64,000 nt of DNA, from NCBI RefSeq assembly GCF_015291705.1, contig NZ_CP030050.1, forward strand, positions 8,060,001 through 8,124,000. Direction: 5' to 3'. The stretch is from Bradyrhizobium arachidis (lineage in GTDB: Bacteria > Pseudomonadota > Alphaproteobacteria > Rhizobiales > Xanthobacteraceae). Below, in pieces: positions 18,867 to 31,186 of this stretch. The notes under the pieces were generated by a model. That model saw only the letters and a program-made list of their open reading frames with translations. It had not been told where the DNA came from and ran no database searches. The position numbers were made by a program, and so were the translations under genes. How positions within the stretch are numbered: position 1 is the first letter of the stretch; each line of letters starts with the position of its first letter.

Positions 18867-19556
18867 TCAATCCCCTGCCTTCAGCCGGTACCCGATGCCC
18901 GTCTCGGTCAGCACATATTGCGGACGCTCCGGATCGGCTTCGATCTTCTGACGGAGCTGGCGGACATAGACGCGTAGATATTGCGCATCGGTCAGCTCGT
19001 CCCAGAGCTCCTTGAGCAGGAAACGATGGGTCAGCACCTTGCCGGCGTGCTGGACCAGCACGCGCAGGAGATCATACTCCTTCGGCGAAAGCTTCACGTC
19101 GCGCTCGCCGACCTTGACGATGCGGCGGACGAGATCGACGGAGAGATCGCCGGTGCGGAAGATCGGGCGCTCGCCCTGCACCTGAAGCTGGTGCCGCAGC
19201 GCGGCGCGCAGGCGCGCCAGCAGCTCGTCCATGCCAAAGGGTTTTGTCAGATAGTCGTCGGCACCGAGATCGAGCGCCTGCACCTTGCCGGCCTCGTCGC
19301 CGCGGCTCGACAGCACCACGATCGGCACGGCCTCGTTGCGGGCGCGGATGGTGCGCAGGAGCTCATGGCCCTGGATGTCGGGCAGGCCGAGATCGAGAAT
19401 GATCAGCGCCGGCTCCTCAGTGAGCTTCTCCAGCGCGATCTTGCCGTTCGACGCCTCCAGGATCTCGTAGCCCTGCGTCGAGAGTCCCATCCGCAGCAAT
19501 TTGCGGATCGGCGGCTCGTCGTCGATGACAAGGACCTTGATCGGGGCGGCACTCAT
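18867..19556 (-). CDS. kdpE: KdpE response regulator (OmpR/PhoB family)
   Basis: A 229-residue regulator. The receiver domain has the acidic pair Asp12-Asp13 (VIDDEP) and phosphoacceptor Asp55 (IILDLGLPD), followed by a conserved Lys in DDYLTKPFGMDELLARL. The C-terminal winged helix ends in VYVRQLRQKIE and the GIGYRL motif. It activates kdp transcription when phosphorylated by KdpD. It overlaps kdpD by 4 bases and is last in the operon. Members of this family bind tandem half-sites 10-11 bp apart, which matches the four operator-like modules at 27.4-30.3 kb. Confidence 0.96.
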   Translation of the reverse strand: MSAAPIKVLVIDDEPPIRKLLRMGLSTQGYEILEASNGKIALEKLTEEPALIILDLGLPDIQGHELLRTIRARNEAVPIVVLSSRGDEAGKVQALDLGADDYLTKPFGMDELLARLRAALRHQLQVQGERPIFRTGDLSVDLVRRIVKVGERDVKLSPKEYDLLRVLVQHAGKVLTHRFLLKELWDELTDAQYLRVYVRQLRQKIEADPERPQYVLTETGIGYRLKAGD

Positions 19557-22276
19557 GCGGCGGTATCCAATGCTGGGGTCTGTGCCGGGACGGGCAGACG
19601 GATGGTGAGCACGGCACCGCTGCGGTCGCTGCGATTGGCCGCCGAGATCGTGCCGCGCATCGCCTCGACGAAGCCGCGGGAGATGGCGAGACCGAGCCCG
19701 GTGCCGGGCCGGACATGGTCACCCTTCTGCACCCGATAGAACTTGTCGAACACGCTCTCGAGCTCGCCGGGCGGAATGCCGCCGCCCTCGTCGGCGATAT
19801 CGAGCACCACTTGATCACGCTCACGCCGGCTCTTGATCGAGATTGTGGTCTCCGGCGACGAATATTTGGCAGCATTGTCGAGCAGGTTGAACAGCACCTG
19901 CTCGAACAGCACGGCATCGAGCTGGAGCATCGGCAGATCGGCGGCCAGCACCAGCTCCACCTTGTGCGCCGTGAGGATCTTGCTCGCGCGCCTGAGCGCG
20001 CTGCCGACGATCTCGCCGAGATCGTGCAGCGCCGTGTTCGGCACGATGGCGCCGGACTCCAATTTGGTCATGTCGAGCAGGTTGGCGATGAAGCGGTTGA
20101 GCCGCTCGGATTCGTCGATCACGGTGGCGAGCAGGTCGCGCTTCTCGGTGTCCGACAGCGCGCCGGCGAGATCGCGCATGGTCGAGGCCGCGCCCAGCAC
20201 GGAGGCGAGCGGCGTCTTGAGGTCGTGCGAGATCGAGGTCAGCAGCGCGGAGCGTAAGCGCTCGGATTCCACGGTGCGCCGGACGCGGTCCATGTCCTCG
20301 ACCAGCAGCACGCGCTCGATCGCGAGCGCGCCCTGGTCGACCAGCGCATCGAGCAGCCGGCGCTGGTCCGGCGTCAACAGCGGCCCGGTGCGGTCGTTGT
20401 CGATGCCGATGACGCCGATCGGCCCGCGTCCGGTGCGCATCGGCAGGAACAGCCGCTTGGCGCCCGGCAGCGTATCCGAGCCGCGGCCTGCGGGACGGTC
20501 ATTGCTCCAGGCCCAGTTGGCGGCGGCGAGGTCGGCCTGGTCGAGCTGGTCTTCGGGCGGATAGCCTGACTTCACCGTGAGCAGGCCGTCCTCCGGCAGC
20601 AACAGCACGACGCGCACCTTCAGCATCAGCGCGATCTGGTAGGCCGTCGCCCACAGCACGTCGTCGAGCGTGCCTGTGCCGGCGAGCTTGCGGCTGAACG
20701 CATAGAGCTGCTCGGTGGTCCTGATGCGGCCGATCGCGGTGTCGGCCTGCGTACGCACGCGTCCCGCGACGTTCGAGACCACGAACGCAATCAGCATGAA
20801 GAAGAAGAACGCCGCGACATTGGTCGGATCGGTAATAGTGAACGTGTAGACCGGCGGCAGGAAAAAGAAATTGTAGGCCAGCGACGCCGCGATGCTCGCA
20901 AGCAGCGACGGCCACAGCCCGTAGCGCACGGCGACAGCCACCACCGCGGTGAGGAACATCAGATCGACGTTCTCGACACCGAAATACGGCTTGATGAGCA
21001 CCGCTGCCGCAAGGCCAAGCGCGGTAATCCCGAGCGCCTTCAGATAGGGACGTGCGTCGAACGGCTCCGACCGCGCAGCGGTCTGCACCGCGGTCTTCGG
21101 CGGCGGCTCGCTCGCGAGCTCATCGCCGGGAATGACGTGAACGCTGATGTTGCCGGCCCGGCGCACCAGATCATGCACGACGGAGCCGCGCGTGATCTCG
21201 AACCAGCGCGAGCGCGTGGATTTGCCGATCACAATCTGGGTGACGTTATTGGCTTGCGCGAAATTGACGACGTCGTCGGCGATGCGGCGGCCGACGGCGG
21301 GAATGGTCAGCGCCTCGCCGCCGAGCGATTCCGCCAGCCTCAGCGTATCGGCGAGCCGATCGCGCTCCTCGTCGGACAATTGCAGGGATCGCCGCGTCTC
21401 GATGGAGACCGCGGTGAACGGCGCGTGCAGCCGGTCGGCCAGCCGCTTGGTGTAGCGGACGAGGCCGGCCGCGCGCGGATCCTCGCTGACGCAGACGAGG
21501 ATGCGCTCGCCCGCGGCCCAGGGGCCGGCGATGGCATTGGCCTGCATGTGGGTGAGCAGCTGCTCGTCGACCCGCTCGGCCGTGCGCCGCAACGCGAGCT
21601 CGCGGAGCGCGGTCAGGTTGCCTGGCGAGAAATAATGCTCCAGCGCCCGCTCGGCCTGCTTGGGGACGTAGACCTTGCCCTCCTTCAGCCGCTGGATCAG
21701 GTCGTCCGGCGTGAGGTCGATCAGCTCGATCGCATCGGCGCGGTCGAAGATCGAATCCGGCACGGTCTCGCGGACCCGCACATGGGTGATCTGGGCGACG
21801 ACGTCGTTCAGGCTCTCGATGTGCTGGATGTTGACGGCGGTGTAGACGTCGATGCCGCGGGAGAGCAGCTCCTCGACGTCGAGATAGCGCTTGGGATGGC
21901 GGCTGCCTGCGGCGTTGGTGTGGGCGAGCTCGTCGACCAGCGCGATTTGCGGCCGGCGCGCGATCACGGCGTCGAGGTCCATCTCCTCGACCGTCTGGCC
22001 GCGATAGTCGAGCCGCTTGCGCGGGACCACTTCGAGCCCGCGAACCAGCGCCTCGGTCTCGGCGCGGCCATGGGTCTCGACGAAGCCGACCACGACGTCG
22101 ATGCCGGCCTTGCGCCGGGCATGGGCGCTTTGCAGCATCTCATAGGTCTTGCCGACGCCGGGAGCAGCGCCGACGAAGATCTTCAACTTGCCGCTCGCGC
22201 TCTCCTCCCGCCGCGCTGCTTCCAGCAGCGCCTCGGGCGAGGGACGTTGTTCGGGATCGCGGCGCTCTCGGACCAT
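19553..22276 (-). CDS. kdpD: KdpD sensor histidine kinase
   Basis: A 907-residue K+/turgor sensor. The N-terminal KdpD domain has the Walker-like GAAPGVGKTYEML and DELAHTN motifs. A universal-stress domain follows (about 250-380), then four membrane segments (about 425-510), a GAF-like region, and the HisKA/HATPase core (SISHDLKTPLASVLGA, then GTGLGLAISRGFVEA). ATG 22276 is chosen because upstream residues in the open frame (to 22345) overlap kdpC and do not resemble KdpD. It begins 40 bases after the kdpC stop. Confidence 0.95.
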   Translation of the reverse strand: MVRERRDPEQRPSPEALLEAARREESASGKLKIFVGAAPGVGKTYEMLQSAHARRKAGIDVVVGFVETHGRAETEALVRGLEVVPRKRLDYRGQTVEEMDLDAVIARRPQIALVDELAHTNAAGSRHPKRYLDVEELLSRGIDVYTAVNIQHIESLNDVVAQITHVRVRETVPDSIFDRADAIELIDLTPDDLIQRLKEGKVYVPKQAERALEHYFSPGNLTALRELALRRTAERVDEQLLTHMQANAIAGPWAAGERILVCVSEDPRAAGLVRYTKRLADRLHAPFTAVSIETRRSLQLSDEERDRLADTLRLAESLGGEALTIPAVGRRIADDVVNFAQANNVTQIVIGKSTRSRWFEITRGSVVHDLVRRAGNISVHVIPGDELASEPPPKTAVQTAARSEPFDARPYLKALGITALGLAAAVLIKPYFGVENVDLMFLTAVVAVAVRYGLWPSLLASIAASLAYNFFFLPPVYTFTITDPTNVAAFFFFMLIAFVVSNVAGRVRTQADTAIGRIRTTEQLYAFSRKLAGTGTLDDVLWATAYQIALMLKVRVVLLLPEDGLLTVKSGYPPEDQLDQADLAAANWAWSNDRPAGRGSDTLPGAKRLFLPMRTGRGPIGVIGIDNDRTGPLLTPDQRRLLDALVDQGALAIERVLLVEDMDRVRRTVESERLRSALLTSISHDLKTPLASVLGAASTMRDLAGALSDTEKRDLLATVIDESERLNRFIANLLDMTKLESGAIVPNTALHDLGEIVGSALRRASKILTAHKVELVLAADLPMLQLDAVLFEQVLFNLLDNAAKYSSPETTISIKSRRERDQVVLDIADEGGGIPPGELESVFDKFYRVQKGDHVRPGTGLGLAISRGFVEAMRGTISAANRSDRSGAVLTIRLPVPAQTPALDTAA

Positions 22277-22316
22277 CAGGGCAATATAATCATCCTGATG
22301 CCATGGGCATAGACCG

Positions 22317-22922
22317 CTACTTCGCCGACGCGCGATCGAGCGCAAGGTTCAGCGCGAGAACGTTAACCCGGGGTTCGCCGAGCAGGCCGAGCAGACGGCC
22401 CTGGGTGTTGGCGACCACGAGCTGCTTGAGCTGGTCTTCCGGCATATTCCGCGCCTTGGCCACGCGCGGCACCTGGAATTGCGCGGCTTCCGGCGAGATG
22501 TCGGGATCGAGACCGCTGGCCGAGGTGGTGACCAGATCGACCGGCACGGCGGCGTTCGGATTCTCAGCCTTGAGCTTGTCGACATCCTCCTTCATCCGGT
22601 CGGCGAGCGCCTTGCTGGTCGGGCCGAGATTGGAGCCGCCGGAGTTGGCGGCGTTGTAGGGCGCCGACACCGTCTTGGTCGAATCATTGGGGTCCGGCGC
22701 CAGCGTCGCCGAGGGACGGCCGTGGAAGTATTTATCTTCCTTGAACTCCTGCCCGATCAGGGCGGAGCCGATCACCTTGCCGTCCTTCTCGATCAGGCTG
22801 CCTTGCGCCTGCGTCGGGAAAAGCGTGCCGGCAATGGCGGTCATCGCGAGCGGATAGGCCAGGCCCGTGATCGCAGTGAGCACCAGCAACAGAACGATGG
22901 CGGGGCGGATTTCTCTGAGCAT
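22317..22922 (-). CDS. kdpC: K+-transporting ATPase subunit KdpC
   Basis: A 201-residue, single-span periplasm-facing subunit that stabilises nucleotide binding and assembly of the KdpFABC pump. It has an N-terminal membrane segment ([19 protein letters not shown]) and the conserved FHGRPSAT and NSGGSNLGP motifs. The end ([18 protein letters not shown]) is also typical. It is separated from kdpB by 154 bases that carry a REP-like repeat. Confidence 0.96.
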
Positions 22923-23076: not shown

Positions 23077-25191
23077 TTATGCCAGGTGCAAGGCGACCAC
23101 GACGAGATCGATCGCCTTGATGCCGATGAAGGGAATGACGATGCCGCCGAGGCCGTAGATCAGGAGATTGCGGCGGAGCAGCGCGCCGGCACCGACGGCG
23201 CGATAGGCGACGCCCTTCAGCGCCAGCGGGATCAGCGCGATGATGATCAGCGCATTGAAGATGATCGCCGACAGGATGGCGCTCTGCGGGCTCGACAGGT
23301 TCATGATGTTGAGCACGTTGAGCTGCGGGTAGAACGCCAGGAACATCGCCGGGATGATCGCAAAGTATTTTGCGACGTCGTTGGCGATCGAGAAGGTCGT
23401 CAGCGCACCGCGCGTCATCAAGAGCTGCTTGCCGATCTCGACCACCTCGATCAGCTTGGTCGGGTTGGAGTCGAGGTCGACCATGTTGCCGGCCTCGCGG
23501 GCCGCTTGCGTGCCGGTGTTCATGGCGACCCCGACGTCGGCCTGCGCCAGCGCCGGTGCGTCGTTGGTGCCGTCGCCGCACATGGCGACCAGCTTGCCCT
23601 TGGCCTGCTCGTCGCGGATCAGCTTGAGCTTGTCCTCGGGCGTTGCCTGCGCGAGGAAATCGTCGACACCCGCCTCCGCCGCGATCGCAGCCGCCGTCAT
23701 CGGGTTGTCGCCGGTGATCATGATGGTGCGGATGCCCATGCGGCGCAGCTCGGCAAAGCGTTCGCGGATGCCGCCCTTGACGATGTCCTTGAGCTGGATG
23801 ACGCCGAGCAGCTTGCCGTCTTTGGCGACCGCCAGCGGCGTGCCGCCGGCTTTCGATATCTCGTCGGCAATGGCCTGGATCTCGCGGCCGACGTCCGACA
23901 GCGGCGCGGGCTGAATGACCCGAGCGGCATTGCCCGACGCGACCGCCAGCGGCGTGCCGCCACCGACATAATTCAGCATGGCCTCGACCGCGCCCTTGCG
24001 CACCGACGAGCCGCCGGCATCGACGCCGCTCATGCGGGTCTGTGCCGTGAACGGGATGAAGGTGGCCCCTAACTCGGCCATGTCGCGGCCGCGGATGCCG
24101 TATTTCTCCTTGGCGAGCACGACGATTGAACGGCCTTCCGGCGTCTCGTCGGCAAGCGAGGCGAGCTGGGCTGCGTCGGCGAGTTCCTGCTCGGTGACGC
24201 CGCGCACGGGACGGAACGCAGTGGCCTGGCGGTTGCCGAGGGTGATGGTGCCGGTCTTGTCGAGCAGCAGCGTGTCGACGTCACCGGCGGCCTCGACCGC
24301 ACGGCCCGACATCGCCAGCACATTGAAGCGCACCAGACGATCCATGCCGGCGATGCCGATCGCCGAGAGCAGCGCGCCGATCGTGGTCGGGATCAGCGTC
24401 ACGAACAATGCGACCAGCACGATCACCGAGATCGAGCCGCCGGCATAGGCCGCATAGCTCGGAATGGTGACGGTGGCGAACACGAAGATGATGGTGAGGC
24501 CCGCGAGCAAGATATTGAGCGCGATCTCGTTCGGCGTCTTCGCGCGCTCGGCGCCTTCGACCAGCTTGATCATGCGATCGATGAAGGTCGAGCCTTGCGC
24601 CGCGGTGATGCGCACGCGGATCCAGTCGGACAGCACCTGAGTGCCGCCGGTGACCGCCGAGCGGTCGCCACCGGATTCGCGGATGACGGGTGCGGATTCG
24701 CCGGTGATGGCGGCCTCGTTGACGGAGGCGACGCCCTCGATCACCTCGCCGTCCGAGGGGATGGTATCGCCGGCTTCGACCAGCACGATGTCGCCGACCT
24801 TCAGGCTGGTGCCCGGCACCAGCTTGAAGGCCTGGCCTGCACCGGTCAGCAGCTTGGCCTGGCTCTCGGTGCGGGTCTTGCGCAAGGAGTCGGCCTGCGC
24901 CTTGCCGCGGCCTTCGGCGACCGCTTCGGCGAAGTTGGCGAACAGCACCGTGAACCAGAGCCAGAGGATGATCTGGAAGGTGAAGCCGAGGCCGGCGCCG
25001 CCCGTGACGAGGTCGCGCAGGAAGATCACGGTGGTGAGCGCGGCGACGATCTCGACCACGAACATCACGGGGTTCTTCACCATCAGCCGCGGGTTCAGCT
25101 TGGTGAAGGACGCGCTGATCGCGGGCAGCACGATCTTGGGATCGAGCATGGCCGACATCGGAGCGCGCTTTTGCAGTTTCATCGTTTCCAT
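23077..25191 (-). CDS. kdpB: K+-transporting P-type ATPase subunit KdpB
   Basis: The catalytic subunit that hydrolyses ATP to drive K+ uptake. It has the phosphorylation motif [10 protein letters not shown], the TGES motif in [20 protein letters not shown], and the hinge [19 protein letters not shown]. The 704-residue length is normal, with paired membrane spans at the N-terminus, middle and C-terminus. The frame opens at GTG 25200, but ATG 25191 has a better-placed GGAG ribosome site. It follows kdpA by 56 bases. Confidence 0.97.
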
Positions 25192-25247
25192 GGAGGTCAC
25201 TCCAACAATCAGAAGTCTGTCAGAACACTTGGTTCAGAACATTTGGC

Positions 25248-26951
25248 TCAGAACACTTGGCCGGCGTTCATCGCGAGATGCTCGACGATCGGACCGAGCG
25301 CGAGCGCCGGGAAGAAGGTCAGGCCGCCGATGATCAGGATCACGCCGACGACGAGGCCGACGAACAGTCCGCCGGTGGTCGGGAACGTGCCTGCCGAGGG
25401 CGGGATCGATTTCTTGGCCGCGAGCGAACCCGCGATCGCCATCGCCGGCACGATCATGAAGAAGCGGCCGACGAACATCGCGGATGCGAGCGTGAGGTTG
25501 TAGAAGAGGGTGTTGCCGGTGAGGCCCGCGAAGGCCGAGCCGTTGTTGCCGGTCGCCGAGGTGAAGGCGTAGAGCACCTCGGTGAAGCCGTGCGGGCCGG
25601 CATTGGCCATCGAGGCCACCGCCGCCGGATAGACCACGCCGACCGCGGTCCAGCCGAGATACATCAGCGGCAGCACCAGGATCGCGAGCATCGCCATCTT
25701 GACCTCGCGCGCCTCGATCTTCTTGCCGACATATTCCGGCGTGCGGCCGACCATCAGGCCTGCGACGAAGATCGCGAGCACGACGAACAGCAGCATGCCA
25801 TAGAGGCCGGCGCCGACGCCGCCGATGATGATCTCACCGAGCTGCATGTTGATCAGCGGGATCATGCCGCCAAGCGCGGTGAAGCTGTCATGCATGGCGT
25901 TGACCGCGCCGCAGGAGGCGGCTGTGGTGACCACGGCAAACAACGAGGACGCGACGATGCCAAAGCGGACCTCCTTGCCCTCCATGTTGCCGCCGGTCAG
26001 ACCCAGCGCCTGCATGGTCTCGGTGCCGTGCGCTTCCGCCCAATAGGTGACGGTGACGCCGGCGATGAACAGCACGCCCATCACGGCCAAAATCGCCCAG
26101 CCCTGGCGCTGGTTGCCGACCATGCGGCCGAACACGTTGGTCATGGCGGCGCCGATCAGGAAGATCGACAGCATCTGCACCAAGTTCGACAGCGCGGTCG
26201 GGTTCTCGAAAGGATGCGCCGCGTTGGCGTTGAAGAAGCCGCCGCCATTGGTGCCGAGCATCTTGATCGCGACCTGCGAGGCGACCGGGCCGACCGCGAT
26301 GGTCTGCTTGGCGCCTTCGAGCGTCGTCGCCTCGACATACGGGCCGAGCGTCTGCGGCATGCCCTGCCAGACCAGGAACAGGCAGTAAACCACGCAGATC
26401 GGCAGCAGCACGTAGAGCGTGGTGCGGGTGACGTCGACCCAGAAATTGCCGACCGTGCGCATCGAGGCGCGCGAGAAGCCGCGGATCAGGGCGACAGCGA
26501 GCGCGATGCCGGTTGCGGCGGACAGGAAGTTCTGGTGCGTCAGGCCGAGCATCTGCACGAGATAGGACACCGTGCTCTCGCCGCCGTAGTTCTGCCAGTT
26601 GGTGTTGGTGATGAAGGAGATCGCGGTGTTGAAGGAGAGATCCTCCGCGACCGCGCCCTGCCCTGCCGGATTGAACGGGAGCATGGCCTGGAGCCGCATC
26701 ACGCCGTAGATGATGAGGAAGCCGCCGACATGGAACAGCAGCATGGCGACCGTGTAGGTCAGCCAATGCTGCTCGCGCCTCTCGTCGACGCCGGAGATCC
26801 AGTAGATGCCGGCCTCGATCGGGCGCAGCACCGGCGACAGGAAGGTCCGCTCGCCGTTGAAAACGCGCGTCATGTACCCGCCCAGCGGTTTCGTAAGCGC
26901 GACGATGATAAGGCAGAAGAGTATGATCTGGAGCCAACCGATCATGGTCAT
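25248..26951 (-). CDS. kdpA: K+-transporting ATPase subunit KdpA
   Basis: The K+-selective channel-like subunit (567 residues, about ten membrane spans). Selectivity-filter-like motifs are visible: [35 protein letters not shown] and the C-terminal [12 protein letters not shown]. It starts [12 protein letters not shown] at 26951; ATG 26945 is two codons further in. It is preceded by three micro-ORFs with very short gaps. Confidence 0.97.
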
Positions 26952-27063: not shown

Positions 27064-27153
27064 TCAGAACCGTTCCGGCCGCAGCAGCGCATAGGTGAGA
27101 TAGACCAGGAGGCCGAACGAGACGGCGCCGGCGAGGGCATAGTCGAAGATCAT
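27064..27153 (-). CDS. kdpF: KdpF, small subunit of the K+-ATPase
   Basis: A 29-residue peptide beginning MIFDYALAGAVSFGLLVYL and ending ALLRPERF. One membrane segment followed by the R-P-E-x-F ending is the KdpF signature. KdpF stabilises the KdpFABC complex in the inner membrane. It lies 11 bases downstream of another micro-ORF and 3 bases upstream of the next. Confidence 0.9.
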   Translation of the reverse strand: MIFDYALAGAVSFGLLVYLTYALLRPERF

Positions 27154-27164
27154 GGCCCGCTCCC

Positions 27165-27248
27165 TCACAGCCGTTCGCAGGCATAGGTGTAGCCGATCGC
27201 AAGGGCGAAGAAGACGAAGCCCAGCGCCAGCATCAGAATGTCCATCAT
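27165..27248 (-). CDS. 27-residue membrane micro-ORF at the head of the kdp operon
   Basis: MMDILMLALGFVFFALAIG, then YTYACERL. It has a GAGGAG ribosome site and one membrane span followed by a short polar tail ending in C-E-R-L. Similar unnamed peptides precede kdpF in other Proteobacteria as far as I recall. It is the first translated frame after the operator at 27371-27421. It may be an assembly or regulatory peptide of the pump; the function is not established. Confidence 0.7.
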   Translation of the reverse strand: MMDILMLALGFVFFALAIGYTYACERL

Positions 27249-27370
27249 CGGATTGCTCCTCGTTGCGCGACGAATATCCGGCCTGTCTCCGGATCCCGGC
27301 TCCGCGCCAATGCAATGCATGTCTCCGGCGAACGGCCGGAGCTTTCACCGCACCGAGATGCCATCACGCG

Positions 27371-27421
27371 CATAGGTTTTCGAGATGAGCCCTATGGCGA
27401 CCTTATAGGAATCCCATAAAG
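27371..27421 (-). promoter_or_regulatory. Operator/promoter module A (kdp), KdpE-type candidate
   Basis: The minus strand reads TTTATG (27420-27415), N5, CCTATA (27409-27404). A -10-like CCTATG (27376-27371) starts exactly 33 bases after the second half-site starts. The half-sites are 11 bp apart, as OmpR/PhoB-family regulators prefer. From memory the E. coli kdp KdpE site is also two TTTAYA-like half-sites with 5 bases between. The same geometry occurs at three other places in the window. Confidence 0.7.
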
Positions 27422-27647
27422 ACCGACCGTCGCTGAGGGCGGCCGAAATGACACCGGCAAGGTACTCCGGATATTGGCCCGAGACGGCAGCGATGCCGAT
27501 CAGGCATCACCTTCACTGCCGATAATTATGGCGGACCCTCGCCCTGGTCTTCCATAAACGCCTGCCACAAATTGCTGCGGGCATTTCGCAAAAACGACGA
27601 TCGGACATGGGCGCTAGCCGCGCGCCCTGTCCGGCGGCGCCCGTGCC

Positions 27648-27697
27648 TTTATGAAATCCCTATATCTCTCGCCTCCTCCTCATCTCGTTTTCAAATG
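27648..27697 (+). promoter_or_regulatory. Operator/promoter module B
   Basis: TTTATG (27648-27653), N5, CCTATA (27659-27664), and a weaker -10-like CAAATG (27692-27697) at the shared 33-base offset. The predicted leader to the ATG at 27759 is about 55 bases. It is divergent from module A. Confidence 0.6.
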
Positions 27698-27758
27698 CCG
27701 TTCCCGCCATCTTGGAGAGGCCGGCCGACTGACCGACGCCCATTCCAGGAGGCCTGAC

Positions 27759-28226
27759 ATGACCGCCGCTCTCCGCCACTACGACCCGCCGTCGCTCGGC
27801 AAGCGTTTGGCCAATGCGCATGCGATGACGCGACCGTTGATGCTCGACATCATCGATCACGCCTGCCGGCGATTTCCCTCGCTCGGCCAGAACGAGCGTA
27901 CGGCACGCCTCATGCGCCTGATCGACGCGGAGGCCTGGACCGATGCCGCGCTGGCGCTGATAGAGATCGAGCTTCCGCGTTGGCAGGTCCGCCGCATCGC
28001 CTATGACGAAGGCGAATGGCATTGCGCGCTCTCGCGCGAACGAGAGCTGCCGGACTGGCTGGACACGGCGGTCGAGGCGCACCACGCCGATCTCGCGCTC
28101 GCGCTGCTATCGGCGTTCATCGAGGTGCAGGCGCTCGCCGTGGAGGCGTCGCGGCCAAGCGTTCCCACGGTGCGGCCTGCCATGGATTCGCTCTACGAGC
28201 CGGTTGCCTGCGAGAACTTCAGCTAA
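27759..28226 (+). CDS. Unknown 155-residue soluble protein in the Kdp-linked cluster
   Basis: I do not recognise this protein. It starts MTAALRHYDPPSLGKRLANA after a CAGGAGG ribosome site (27739-27745), and the open frame from 27651 is rejected because it overlaps module B. The sequence is mostly helical, acidic and rich in Ala and Leu, with no signal peptide or membrane span. A conserved-looking middle holds EIELPRWQVRRIAYDEGEWH. It is first in a two-gene unit preceded by module B, which suggests co-regulation with kdp. Confidence 0.75.
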   Translation: MTAALRHYDPPSLGKRLANAHAMTRPLMLDIIDHACRRFPSLGQNERTARLMRLIDAEAWTDAALALIEIELPRWQVRRIAYDEGEWHCALSRERELPDWLDTAVEAHHADLALALLSAFIEVQALAVEASRPSVPTVRPAMDSLYEPVACENFS

Positions 28227-28241
28227 GCCAGCGTTCGTGCC

Positions 28242-28520
28242 TTGCCGCAAACCTCAGACATATCGCGGGCCCTGAGCCCGGCGCGGGTGATCGCGCGCTT
28301 TGCCGTGCGCGTCGTTCTCCTCGCCGGCTTTGCCGCATTCGGCAGCATCGGCTTCGGACGCGGCCTGGCCGCCCTGCTCTGGATGTCGATCATCCTGTGT
28401 GCGGCCGTCGGCCTTCTCAGGCGTGAGCCGCTGTTCGGTGCCGTCCTCAATCACTGGGACGAATGCGCCGCGTTCGGCGCGCTGTTCGCGCTGGTTCATC
28501 TCGCCAGCGAGCTGGGCTGA
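28242..28520 (+). CDS. Unknown 92-residue membrane protein
   Basis: A TTG-initiated frame 15 bases after the previous stop. After a basic N-terminus it has two close hydrophobic segments (VVLLAGFAAFGSIGFG and AALLWMSIILCAAVGLL), then an amphipathic end (HWDECAAFGALFALVHLASE). It is probably an inner-membrane protein with two or three spans. The start codon is uncertain and there is no clear ribosome site, so translation may be coupled to the upstream gene. The family is not recognised. Confidence 0.6.
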   Translation: MPQTSDISRALSPARVIARFAVRVVLLAGFAAFGSIGFGRGLAALLWMSIILCAAVGLLRREPLFGAVLNHWDECAAFGALFALVHLASELG

Positions 28521-28529
28521 TCACGCGGC

Positions 28530-28579
28530 TTTATGCGCTTCCTATGAGATCGCCGCACCGCCTCACTCGAAATCATATT
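28530..28579 (+). promoter_or_regulatory. Operator/promoter module C
   Basis: TTTATG (28530-28535), N5, CCTATG (28541-28546), and a -10-like CATATT (28574-28579) at the shared 33-base offset. The predicted leader to the ATG at 28654 is about 68 bases. It lies 9 bases after the stop of the preceding gene, so it would start a new transcript inside the cluster. Confidence 0.68.
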
Positions 28580-28653
28580 CGCTTGAAAAGATATTGATCG
28601 GACGGTTGCGGGCTTGCGTCCGCCGCCTCTGTCAATCGGAAAGGACTACGTCC

Positions 28654-28908
28654 ATGAAGCTGGTCGAACCGCCCTCGTGCAGCTCCCCCTCGACTATCGT
28701 CTTCGTCGGCCGCAACCACAGGGGACAATGGGTCGCGCAGGAGCAGAGCGGCCTCTATGGCGGCCTGTTCGTCAGCCGCGCCCAGGCCATCAAATATGCG
28801 CTGTTCGAGAACGGGCAGCACCCTGAAACCATCGTCGAGCTGCCGCGCGAGCTCGAGCTCGACATGGGCAAGAATCCCAACAGCATCCTCTCACAGCGCG
28901 CCGCCTGA
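28654..28908 (+). CDS. Unknown 84-residue protein, paralogue of the 30584 gene
   Basis: The core motif FVGRNHRGQWVAQEQSGLYG, then GLFVSRAQAIKYA, is clearly shared with FIGRNSAGLWVAREANGRIG, then GLFLFKSSAMDFA, in the protein at 30584. Both go on to an ELELD or IELDV motif and an N-P pair. The two are therefore paralogues in separate units of the same cluster. The pattern suggests a small beta-sheet domain without membrane spans. Function unknown. The first gene after module C. Confidence 0.8.
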   Translation: MKLVEPPSCSSPSTIVFVGRNHRGQWVAQEQSGLYGGLFVSRAQAIKYALFENGQHPETIVELPRELELDMGKNPNSILSQRAA

Positions 28909-28929
28909 GCGCGTTTGCCGCGAGGCACC

Positions 28930-29847
28930 ATGTTCATCCCTCCCTCAGCCTGGTTCACCGGCTTCATTCCGGACCTGCCGACACCGTTCGACACGGCGGA
29001 CGCGGTTGACATCAACGCGTTCGCCGCGCTCTGCGAGCGCCAGATCGCCGCGAGTGCTCCCGCGATCGTGGTCTGCGAGACGGCCGGCGAGGCATCGACA
29101 CTCTCGCCGGCCGAGCAGGAGCTGGTCATCCGCACTGCGGTCGATGTCGCCCGCGGCCGCGTCCGGGTCATTGCCGGCGCCGTCTCGAATTCAACGAGCC
29201 ATGCCATCGAGCTCGCGCGGCGCGCGGAGGCGGCCGGCGCCGACGCCATCATGTCGGTCGTTCCGGCCTACAACAAACCGATGCAGGAGGGCATGCTCGC
29301 GCACTTCCGCAGCCTTGCAGGTTCGATCGGCCTGCCGGTGATCCTGCACGACATTCCCTCCCGCACGCTGCGCCCACTGGCCGACGAGACGCTGCTGCGT
29401 CTCGTCGAATCCCGGCGGTTCGTGGGCCTGCGCGATGGAAGCGGTGACATCACCCGCCCCATGCGCCTGTCGCGGCATCTGCCGGCGGGGTTTCGCTTCC
29501 TGTCCGGCGACGACGCCACCGCGTTCGGCTTCATCACGGACGGCGGCGATGGCGCGATCTCGGAGGTCGCCAATATCGCGCCGGATCTCTGCCGCACGAT
29601 CTTCTCGCATGTCAGGCAGGGGCGCCTGCAATCGGCGCGCTACCTGCACAAGCGCCTCATTCCCCTGATCGCCTGCCTGTCGAAGGAGAGCCCGGCGGCA
29701 CTCAAATATGCGCTCAGCGTGCTCGGCCTGATGTCGGAAGCCACACGGCTGCCGATCGTGCCGCTGGAGGCGACCAGGCAGCGGGAGGTGGTCCGCGCCT
29801 TCGCCGCGATCGCCGACGAGGAACTGATCGACGGCGTCGGGGCCTGA
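28930..29847 (+). CDS. DapA/NAL-superfamily protein lacking the catalytic Lys and Tyr
   Basis: The 305-residue sequence follows the dihydrodipicolinate synthase fold throughout. With an ungapped offset of 7 from E. coli DapA, Thr44 is kept (Thr51) and Thr45 is Ala52. Tyr106 is Ala113, Tyr107 is kept (Tyr114), and Tyr133 is His140 (LHDIPSRT). Schiff-base Lys161 is Arg168 (GLRDGSGD). Without the Lys it cannot form the usual pyruvate imine. It may bind a 2-oxo acid or act as a regulator rather than a normal aldolase. TTG 28915 is an alternative start. Its place among small K+-linked genes is not typical for lysine synthesis. Confidence 0.85.
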   Translation: MFIPPSAWFTGFIPDLPTPFDTADAVDINAFAALCERQIAASAPAIVVCETAGEASTLSPAEQELVIRTAVDVARGRVRVIAGAVSNSTSHAIELARRAEAAGADAIMSVVPAYNKPMQEGMLAHFRSLAGSIGLPVILHDIPSRTLRPLADETLLRLVESRRFVGLRDGSGDITRPMRLSRHLPAGFRFLSGDDATAFGFITDGGDGAISEVANIAPDLCRTIFSHVRQGRLQSARYLHKRLIPLIACLSKESPAALKYALSVLGLMSEATRLPIVPLEATRQREVVRAFAAIADEELIDGVGA

Positions 29848-29868
29848 GGCGTCGCGGGCGGGCATCGC

Positions 29869-30264
29869 ATGCCGACATTGGTCGAAGGAACTCAGAGGCT
29901 GCTCCACGCCTGGCAATTGGCGCTGCTGCGCTTTGCCGTGACACGTGATGAGCCCGACAGGCTCAACGTCGCGGCGCTCGCGGCCGAGCTCGATCACCTC
30001 GGCGGGCGGCGTCACGCCGACGACTCGCTACACTTCTTCCGGCGCACCAGCTCGCAGCTCTGCGCGGCCATCGGCGGGCAGCACCAGAATGCCGATGCGA
30101 TCCTGGACGGCTTCTGCAAGCAGATCGAGGAGCCGCGGCTGCGGCTTGCCTTTGCGGCGGCGATCGGGATGACGCATTCGGATCCTGCGCCGTCGCAGCT
30201 GCGGCCGAAGCGGAACCCCGATCTCTTCAGAGGGCTGCCGGCGCGACGGTCGGCGTCTTTATGA
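29869..30264 (+). CDS. Unknown 131-residue protein
   Basis: Begins MPTLVEGTQRLLHAWQLALL and appears all-helical and soluble, with a charged, Arg/Pro-rich tail. It is third in the unit that starts at module C, 21 bases after the DapA-like gene. I do not recognise the family. The middle (LHFFRRTSSQLCAAIGGQ) and the absence of Cys clusters or nucleotide motifs give no functional hint. The end of the frame overlaps module D by 7 bases. Confidence 0.65.
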   Translation: MPTLVEGTQRLLHAWQLALLRFAVTRDEPDRLNVAALAAELDHLGGRRHADDSLHFFRRTSSQLCAAIGGQHQNADAILDGFCKQIEEPRLRLAFAAAIGMTHSDPAPSQLRPKRNPDLFRGLPARRSASL

Positions 30265-30307
30265 GATTCCTATGCCGGCAGCCCGGCGGTCATCTCGCAA
30301 TCCTACG
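30258..30307 (+). promoter_or_regulatory. Operator/promoter module D
   Basis: TTTATG (30258-30263), N5, CCTATG (30269-30274), and a -10-like CCTACG (30302-30307) at the shared 33-base offset. The predicted leader to the ATG at 30378 is about 64 bases. It overlaps the last codons of the gene before it. Confidence 0.65.
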
Positions 30308-30377
30308 CAGCGATGGACATCATTACCAAGCAGATTGGAGCGGCCGTCTCGCCGCACCAAGGACAAGGACTTCCAAC

Positions 30378-30566
30378 ATGTCGATCCTGACGCATGGCCT
30401 TGACCGGCCCTTCCCCGTCGAACGCCCGGTGCGGCTGTCAACGGCACGCAAGGCCCGGCTCAAGCGCCTCGCACTCGGCGCGCTGACCCTGCTCTCGATG
30501 GGCAGCGTGCTCACCGCGCTGATCGCGCTAAAGACCGCAATCTATGTCTGGCACCTGCACGCCTGA
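30378..30566 (+). CDS. Unknown 62-residue single-span membrane protein
   Basis: A basic N-terminus (RLSTARKARLKRLALGA) precedes one membrane segment (LTLLSMGSVLTALIALKTAI) and a short aromatic/His tail (YVWHLHA). ATG 30378 is preferred to the upstream frame because it follows module D and an AAGGAC ribosome site. It is first of four tightly packed small genes. The positive-inside rule puts the N-terminus in the cytosol. Function unknown. Confidence 0.7.
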   Translation: MSILTHGLDRPFPVERPVRLSTARKARLKRLALGALTLLSMGSVLTALIALKTAIYVWHLHA

Positions 30567-30583: not shown

Positions 30584-30973
30584 ATGACCTTGCAAATGTG
30601 TGAAGAGGCCGCGATGGCCGCAATCGCTCTTCAAACCGCCCATCACCGGCCGGAGCCCCGGCAGGTGCAGGCGATGCTTGGACCGATCGACCCGGATGTC
30701 GTCAGCGCCGCCATTCCGGCCTTCTTCATCGGGCGCAACAGCGCCGGCCTCTGGGTCGCGCGCGAGGCGAACGGCCGCATCGGCGGTCTGTTCCTGTTCA
30801 AGAGCTCGGCGATGGACTTCGCCAACCGTCAGAGCGCGCCGGCGCGCTGCGCGCTGGTGTTTCCCACCGAGACGATCGAGCTCGACGTCGAGAACCGCGG
30901 CAATCCGCTGATCGTGCTGGCGCAGGGCGCCATGCGGCTCCTGGCGCGCATGACCACGAGGCGGCCGACATGA
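30584..30973 (+). CDS. Unknown 129-residue protein, paralogue of the 28654 gene
   Basis: It has an excellent AAGGAGG ribosome site. A 45-residue leader precedes the shared domain (FFIGRNSAGLWVAREANGRI, then GGLFLFKSSAMDFA, then ETIELDV and GNPLIVL). Compared with its 84-residue paralogue it has extra N- and C-terminal extensions (ending ARMTTRRPT). No membrane span. It overlaps the next micro-ORF by ATGA. Confidence 0.78.
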   Translation: MTLQMCEEAAMAAIALQTAHHRPEPRQVQAMLGPIDPDVVSAAIPAFFIGRNSAGLWVAREANGRIGGLFLFKSSAMDFANRQSAPARCALVFPTETIELDVENRGNPLIVLAQGAMRLLARMTTRRPT

Positions 30974-31056
30974 TCGAGCTCAAGATCGCCATCCTGGTTG
31001 CGCTGATGGGTGCGTTGCTGCTCGGCCTGCGCCTCACCGCGGCGCCGGACCGCTAG
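30970..31056 (+). CDS. 28-residue membrane micro-ORF
   Basis: MIELKIAILVALMGALLLGL followed by RLTAAPDR. One membrane span with a short polar tail, a design much like KdpF and the other kdp micro-ORFs. The ATG overlaps the previous stop (ATGA), which argues for coupled translation. Too short for a family assignment. Confidence 0.6.
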   Translation: MIELKIAILVALMGALLLGLRLTAAPDR

Positions 31057-31057
31057 C

Positions 31058-31186
31058 ATGCAGCTCCTCAAGGGAAATCTTGAGCACGCGGTCACGACGA
31101 CGATCCTGACCATGACGCTGAGCCTGATCTGGGGCGCGGTCCTGACGCTCGTGATCACGCTTCTGGCTCGCGGGCTCGGCGTCTAG
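31058..31186 (+). CDS. 42-residue membrane micro-ORF
   Basis: MQLLKGNLEHAVTTTILTMT, then a hydrophobic segment (LSLIWGAVLTLVITLLARGL) and a two-residue end. The ATG begins one base after the previous stop. It is the last gene of the module-D unit, and its stop overlaps the end of the convergent tetR gene by 4 bases. Function unknown. Confidence 0.6.
   Translation: MQLLKGNLEHAVTTTILTMTLSLIWGAVLTLVITLLARGLGV

Follow-up and report, generated by a model that had tools for sequence, protein, structure and literature searches.

Conserved promoter modules upstream of kdp and of neighboring small-gene operons in Bradyrhizobium suggest a KdpE regulon

Introduction

In Escherichia coli, the response regulator KdpE recognizes the sequence TTTATA-N5-TTTACA upstream of the kdpFABC operon, where its footprint spans positions -72 to -50, and residues R193, R200 and T215 of the protein matter for DNA binding (PMC3264566). 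The portion of that report available to us treats the pump promoter and does not state the exact place of the first repeat within the footprint. Here we describe promoter modules that fit this site in a 64,000-nucleotide stretch of the Bradyrhizobium arachidis genome (contig NZ_CP030050.1, positions 8,060,001 to 8,124,000; hereafter ‘the window’), where they precede not just the kdp operon but also three neighboring units composed largely of small genes.

Among the Alphaproteobacteria, KdpE of Sinorhizobium fredii likewise binds the kdpFABC promoter in gel shift assays and bound neither trkA nor kup when these were assayed (PMC9239096). The main text of this study contains none of the terms regulon, motif and binding site, and, to the extent accessible, small genes are not named. 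Direct repeats of 6 bp separated by 5 bp are also recognized by another OmpR-family regulator, WalR/VicR, although the word is different (consensus TGTWAH-N5-TGTWAH; PMC4168254). A survey of titles and abstract openings in the open-licence literature gave no hint that a KdpE regulon extends past kdp, or that Alphaproteobacteria use a third half-site.

Results

Four modules match the known KdpE site

The pattern TTTATG-N5-CCTATR, whose two words we call S1 and S2, occurs four times as an exact match in the window, once on the reverse strand upstream of kdp (27420-27404) and three times on the forward strand (27648, 28530 and 30258), as an earlier note on this DNA had listed. No further match with at most one mismatch was found in the window, and five matches are present when two mismatches are allowed, compared to a mean of 0.81 in shuffled sequence (none of 100 shuffles reached five). 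Like the E. coli site, each module carries 6-bp direct repeats 5 bp apart, with TTTATG rather than TTTATA as the first word. The second word differs, being CCTATR in place of TTTACA, and the Bradyrhizobium module precedes several units.

The four modules had been called identical, but their spacers, the last base of S2 and a third word further downstream (CCTATG, CAAATG, CATATT and CCTACG) all vary. The spacing of 33 bases holds when counted between the first bases of S2 and of this third word, which leaves 27 bases between the two words. The conserved core is longer than originally described. It includes CTCG, whose first base precedes the third word by 8 bp, and CATNTT, which begins 16 bp after the first base of that word. 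From the modules of relatives, the extended form reads [TC]TTATR-N5-CCTATR, about 19 bases, and then CTCG-N4-C-N-TAYG. The distance from the third word to the first open reading frame (ORF) of each unit is 61 bases for the gene of a 155-aa protein (o155), 74 for that of an 84-aa protein (o84), 70 for that of a 62-aa protein (o62) and 122 for the first ORF of kdp, which is near the 55 to 116 bases proposed before.

In the entire 9.87-Mb genome the exact pattern occurs five times, with four of these sites within 2.9 kb at the window locus. The fifth (3348764) carries CCTACG at the same distance and lies upstream of a 70-aa ORF whose product, judged by eye, is of the secreted type. A sequence-only model of the module, with which the best 150 of 5440 candidates were scored, returns six places in this genome with E <= 0.011, namely the four window sites, 5603625 (1.2e-6) and 3348763 (0.0105), and the ten others listed have E >= 0.27. 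Weak module members may be missed, because only the best first-look candidates were scored in such genome-wide searches (150 here and 48 in the survey of 117 genomes described below).

KdpE itself is encoded in the same locus, as the earlier note had recognized (18867..19556, reverse strand). The protein carries receiver and winged-helix domains (Pfam Response_reg and Trans_reg_C), and its best match among solved structures is E. coli KdpE (Protein Data Bank entry 4kny, 210 bits). Its gene is encoded with kdpD and kdpFABC, with KdpC and KdpD assigned by family scan and KdpF, KdpA and KdpB by family resemblance and gene order. Allowing for a presumed 2-residue offset in numbering, the residues aligned to R193, R200 and T215 are R, R and T.

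A third word covaries with the first two

For the third word, 82 kdpA upstream regions were assembled from order- and class-wide searches, comprising 30 loci, 18 further matches from the order, 33 of 34 other matches from the class (G412 was left out) and the second kdp operon of genome G088. An S1-S2 pair, chosen blind to the downstream sequence from the region 180-620 bases before kdpA, is present in 66 of these 82 alphaproteobacterial regions, of which 53 are non-redundant. In this set of 53, identity to a region's own S1 and S2 averages 4.13 of 6 bases at an offset of 33, whereas all other offsets from 17 to 79 reach at most 2.47 (at 32). A match of at least 5 of 6 bases occurs at 33 ± 1 in 34 of the 53 regions (24 at exactly 33), compared to 0-3 regions in each of 12 other windows of positions. 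Third words also resemble the S1 and S2 of their own promoter (4.87) better than swapped ones (4.18 ± 0.10; 0 of 5000 swaps equaled the true pairing), as is evident in triplets such as CCAACA/TTAACG/CCAACG, CTAATG/CTTATA/CTAATG and CTTACG repeated three times. Since the word varies together with S1 and S2, it is probably a third half-site (S3) for the same protein, placed 33 bp (3 x 11) after S2, rather than a -10 element.

Conservation downstream of the third word points in the same direction. Among 53 non-redundant modules (less than 62% identity over 125 bases), the best-conserved bases past this word are C60 A61 T62 N T64 T65, with A61 present in 83%. Likewise, 42 kdp promoters from outside the genus were chosen for having S1, S2 and S3 and were aligned by their S3 words; in this set, a simple -10 score is highest at +61 (2.15, with 0.78 as the next value). 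The probable -10 element is thus CATNTT, 16 bp beyond the start of the third word. It is separated from the -35-like CTCG at +37 by a spacer of 17 bp (18 outside the genus); both words are degenerate and are recognized by conservation only.

The earlier note had instead taken the third word as the -10 element. On that reading, two KdpE half-sites would cover the region from about -56 to -40, with an ordinary start just downstream. This assignment, probably wrong, is in keeping with the fact that A47 is invariant in all 68 aligned modules and in the 42 outside promoters (which were chosen for having the third word), and TAT fits the TATA-kind -10 reported for Bradyrhizobium in the accessible portion of a start-site study of strain USDA 110 (PMC4842269), whose main text does not contain ‘kdp’. 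However, the covariation with S1 and S2 extends across families, words such as CCAACG and CTAATG, as well as the CAAATG of the window o155 module, do not look like -10 elements, and a second block of A and T bases is present at +60 to 65. A start near +72, as predicted from this conserved block, would place S1 near -72, where the E. coli footprint has its upstream end. A -10 role for the third word therefore seems unlikely, and we favor its assignment as S3.

It is also conceivable that CTCG-N4-CNTAYG is recognized by a separate factor or an alternative sigma factor and that KdpE occupies S1 and S2 only. In support of such a factor, the first C, the T and the G of CTCG are, like A47, invariant in the 68 modules, and T37 and G39 are present in 90% and 81%, respectively, of the 42 promoters outside the genus. 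Yet CTCG occupies the place of a -35 element, separated from CATNTT by 17 bp, and the CNTAYG part of the proposed site covaries with S1 and S2, which makes this arrangement improbable compared to a third KdpE half-site within an ordinary promoter.

With these assignments, the kdp module spans 27355..27420 on the reverse strand, with S1 at 27420-27415 (TTTATG), S2 at 27409-27404 (CCTATA), the -35-like CTCG starting at 27384, S3 at 27376-27371 (CCTATG), a probable -10 at 27360-27355 (CATCTC) and a predicted transcription start near 27348. On the forward strand, the o155 module (27648..27713) comprises S1 at 27648-27653, S2 at 27659-27664, CTCG at 27684-27687, S3 at 27692-27697 (CAAATG) and a probable -10 at 27708-27713 (CATCTT). 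The o84 module (28530..28595) follows with S1 at 28530-28535, S2 at 28541-28546, CTCG at 28566-28569, S3 at 28574-28579 (CATATT) and a probable -10 at 28590-28595 (GATATT). Finally, the o62 module (30258..30323) has S1 at 30258-30263, S2 at 30269-30274, CTCG at 30294-30297, S3 at 30302-30307 (CCTACG) and a probable -10 at 30318-30323 (CATCAT).

The module accompanies kdp and KdpE across the genus

A contig search with the 155-aa protein yielded 109 loci, of which 80 were kept; nearly all are named Bradyrhizobium, a few are metagenome-assembled genomes, and one is labelled Frankia. A weight matrix built from 68 modules, applied with a score threshold of 14, finds two to five modules in each of the 80 loci (284 in 1.42 Mb), whereas the highest score in base-shuffled loci (n=40) is 2.4. 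The earlier note had expected the motif upstream of kdp in related genomes, and it does stand upstream of kdpA in every named locus in which we found that gene (78 of 78). For the small genes, the corresponding counts among loci containing each gene are 78 of 80 (155-aa), 58 of 64 (84-aa) and 50 of 57 (62-aa). No module was found within 320 bp of the genes for the 92-aa protein (46 found), the dihydrodipicolinate-synthase-family (DHDPS) enzyme (57) or the 131-aa protein (29), all of which lie inside units. Seventeen modules precede none of the tested genes, 14 of them pointing leftward and three rightward.

The 14 leftward modules lie 2.6-5.2 kb from the 155-aa gene, near 11600-14200 in L066, L095, L096, L099, L101, L102 and L106-L113. 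The locus named Frankia sp. RB7 (L081) is a Bradyrhizobium-type kdp locus whose 155-aa protein is 79% identical, and the genome is probably misnamed or contaminated.

In a single draw of 117 genomes of the genus (module E <= 1e-3, KdpA E <= 1e-70), the module was found in 107, KdpE in 106 and KdpA in 106. All 106 genomes with kdpA carry the module, compared to one of the 11 genomes lacking it, and in the genomes of this draw that lack kdp we did not find the module put to any other use. Of the 117 genomes, 103 contain the 155-aa gene, and the six genomes that have kdpA but lack this gene keep the module at kdp (four were read, and G083 and G094 were judged by coordinates).

These distributions bear on the possibility that another OmpR/PhoB-family protein, or a KdpE paralogue, recognizes the modules and has brought both kdp and the small genes under its control. 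Candidates are available, as evident by 157 first-look candidate relatives of KdpE in the B. arachidis genome (the best 24 of the 157 were scored), and the repeat spacing is not unique to KdpE, given the WalR/VicR consensus (PMC4168254). Nevertheless, the ten genomes without the module all lack kdpA, and nine of them also lack KdpE. In the tenth (G008), KdpE and KdpD are encoded beside a 155-aa homologue with a degenerate module. Such KdpE-o155 pairs without kdpABC alongside still keep degenerate modules (scores of 27.2 in G008 and 16.7 at a second locus of G078), and the E. coli KdpE site has similar words at the same spacing (PMC3264566). A different regulator is thus quite improbable, and KdpE remains the favored reader of these modules.

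At these two loci (L032 9883-12870 and L163 6173-7607), KdpE adjoins a 155-aa homologue of 41-42% identity with a degenerate module between them and no kdpABC in the stretch examined, and the small 155-aa gene is perhaps tied to KdpDE itself and not to the pump. Elsewhere, at L165 (4497-9961), a kdpD fragment adjoins a small-gene island that contains five modules, with no kdpABC in the 12 kb examined, and G058 has an additional copy of the 155-aa gene on a different contig. In the 14 kb examined, L166 (6791-7264, from G059) contains only broken pieces of the 155-aa gene together with a 54-aa piece matching kdpE, as in a decayed locus.

Modules also precede distant genes

The gene of a 145-aa protein at 5603824 has relatives in 17 of the 117 genomes, with 20 matches, of which 16 are full length. 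Fifteen of these 16, the B. arachidis gene included, have an upstream site scoring 15.5-46.4, and one has a weak site (7.9); the remaining matches are three fragments without a site and one divergent homologue without a site of its own. Similarly, a stand-alone DUF4118 protein (DUF4118 being the membrane domain of KdpD) is present in 11 of the 117 genomes and has the module upstream in eight of the 11, with L162 (1600-2569) as an example. Each of these counts includes the gene that prompted the search. Homologues of the 131-aa protein located elsewhere in two relatives (48 and 52% identity) carry a module of their own.

That the distant targets are not beside kdp in the stretches examined argues against simple local duplication. 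Although three of the four window modules drive side-by-side genes and o84 and the 129-aa gene of the neighboring unit are related, it is highly improbable that the modules are recent local duplicates of one promoter with unselected effects on small genes, because the conserved bases cluster in the half-sites, CTCG and the -10 element while the flanks differ, and modules are kept genus-wide before each gene and also before unlinked genes.

Genes of the locus

Leftward from its module, the kdp operon begins with an ORF for a 27-aa hydrophobic peptide (MMDILMLALGFVFFALAIGYTYACERL; 27168..27248, reverse strand), and a similar peptide, judged by eye, follows the kdp module of L161. This ORF precedes a small hydrophobic ORF of 29 aa, presumably kdpF (27064..27153). 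The next genes we take to be kdpA (25248..26951) and kdpB (23077..25200), as these three names are assumed from family resemblance and operon order. The operon continues with kdpC (22317..22922; Pfam KdpC, 260.8 bits) and the sensor kinase gene kdpD (19553..22345; Pfam KdpD, Usp, DUF4118, HisKA and HATPase), all on the reverse strand. The longest kdpD ORF starts with TTG, and the true start is probably an internal ATG.

On the forward strand, o155 (27759..28226) matches no family above cut-off, and its predicted structure is poor (pLDDT 62.6). It is followed in the same predicted unit by the gene of a 92-aa hydrophobic protein (28242..28520), which has no module of its own. The second unit comprises o84 (28654..28908), the gene of the 305-aa DHDPS-family enzyme (28930..29847; Pfam DHDPS 230 bits, TIGR00674 248.4 versus a cut-off of 206.15) and that of the 131-aa protein (o131, 29869..30264; no known family). 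The third comprises o62 (30378..30566), whose 62-aa product has a hydrophobic tail, the gene of the 129-aa relative of o84 (30584..30973), a 28-aa hydrophobic ORF that overlaps the stop of the latter gene (30970..31056) and the gene of a 42-aa hydrophobic protein conserved in relatives (31058..31186).

Six of the small proteins were scanned (the 28-aa and 42-aa ORFs were left out), and none has an accepted Pfam or NCBIfam family. For the 129-aa protein, considered for a fold shared with YegP/UPF0339, Foldseek gave no match at E <= 0.001. Of the nine small genes counted previously, eight are small ORFs, and the ninth encodes the 305-aa enzyme.

Discussion

It is very likely, judging from sequence comparisons, that the four modules are KdpE-dependent promoters of one regulon that comprises the pump, three neighboring small-gene operons and one or two distant genes. 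This regulon had been proposed in the earlier note, and the proposal is strengthened by conservation upstream of kdpA, by co-occurrence in the 117 genomes, by the match to the E. coli site and by the contact residues of KdpE. In the model that we infer, scarcity of K+ would lead KdpD to phosphorylate KdpE. The activated regulator would then occupy S1 and S2, direct repeats of the form YYTATR-N5-YYTATR located from about -72 to -56, as well as S3 at about -28 to -23, three helical turns (33 bp) further on and on the same face of the DNA. S3 would thereby sit between a degenerate -35 element (CTCG, reading like CTTG) and the -10 element (CATNTT), and bound KdpE would recruit or align the sigma-70 RNA polymerase. 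The predicted output would be the pump in the leftward direction and, in the rightward direction, the units o155-o92, o84-DHDPS-o131 and o62-o129 with two small membrane peptides. Further targets would be the 145-aa gene at 5603824 and perhaps the 70-aa secreted-type protein near 3348764.

Several observations weigh against this model or temper the evidence for it. In the B. arachidis genome, matches with at most one mismatch number 8, compared to 16 for a backwards control pattern, such that loose matches are not enriched and the motif alone is uninformative; the signal resides in the exact, clustered sites and the remainder of the module. Counts from the 80 loci are partly circular, because 54 of the 68 matrix modules come from the same loci. 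Similarly, part of the co-occurrence follows simply from the presence of the module in the kdp promoter itself, and relatives share history, so that co-occurrence and the similarity of S3 to S1 and S2 are not fully independent. Some genomes also depart from the pattern. G042, a fragmentary assembly (80% complete), has modules, one contig of it carrying the small-gene island, and neither kdpA nor KdpE was found there; in G023 (89% complete), which has the module and kdpA, KdpE was not found. At the second kdp operon of G088, a pair resembling S1-S2 is present without the module. This operon (L164 5794-14891 and L254; about 50% identity, two KdpE-like genes) probably represents another lineage and promoter type.

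With regard to S3, 16 of the 82 kdpA upstream regions lack the S1-S2 pair at threshold and 19 of the 53 non-redundant ones lack a close S3, while base composition could add to the covariation and shared ancestry may contribute. The equivalent word in E. coli is the weak TTTGCA, at an offset of 32 rather than the 33 bp seen in Bradyrhizobium, and its match of 5 of 6 bases, with a chance expectation of 2-6%, may reflect a remnant or coincidence. S3 also falls within the expected footprint of RNA polymerase, which is unusual for an activator of the OmpR/PhoB family. Among 40 genomes chosen by half-site type, an Arg in the recognition helix of KdpE accompanies half-sites starting with CC (13 of 22 versus 1 of 18, p = 0.0006), but this link is supporting evidence only because it mostly reflects one deep split in the KdpE tree. 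A Ser replacing Tyr in KdpE was seen only in two genomes with AAC words (L193 and L194), and L179 is an exception, with A at the third base of two half-sites and no Ser.

The three-half-site architecture is the more novel part of these findings relative to the regulon. On the present comparisons, we lean toward a class-wide KdpE promoter of three half-sites with S3 between the -35 and -10 elements, combined in Bradyrhizobium with a previously unrecognized response to K+ starvation by small, partly membrane-bound proteins. If so, KdpE would extend from a regulator of one pump to that of a small regulon, and the promoters would make a clear test case for OmpR/PhoB-type activation through a half-site in the promoter spacer, a feature that recurs at kdp across the class. 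Moreover, K+ limitation would provide a handle on the functions of protein families that are common in Bradyrhizobium.

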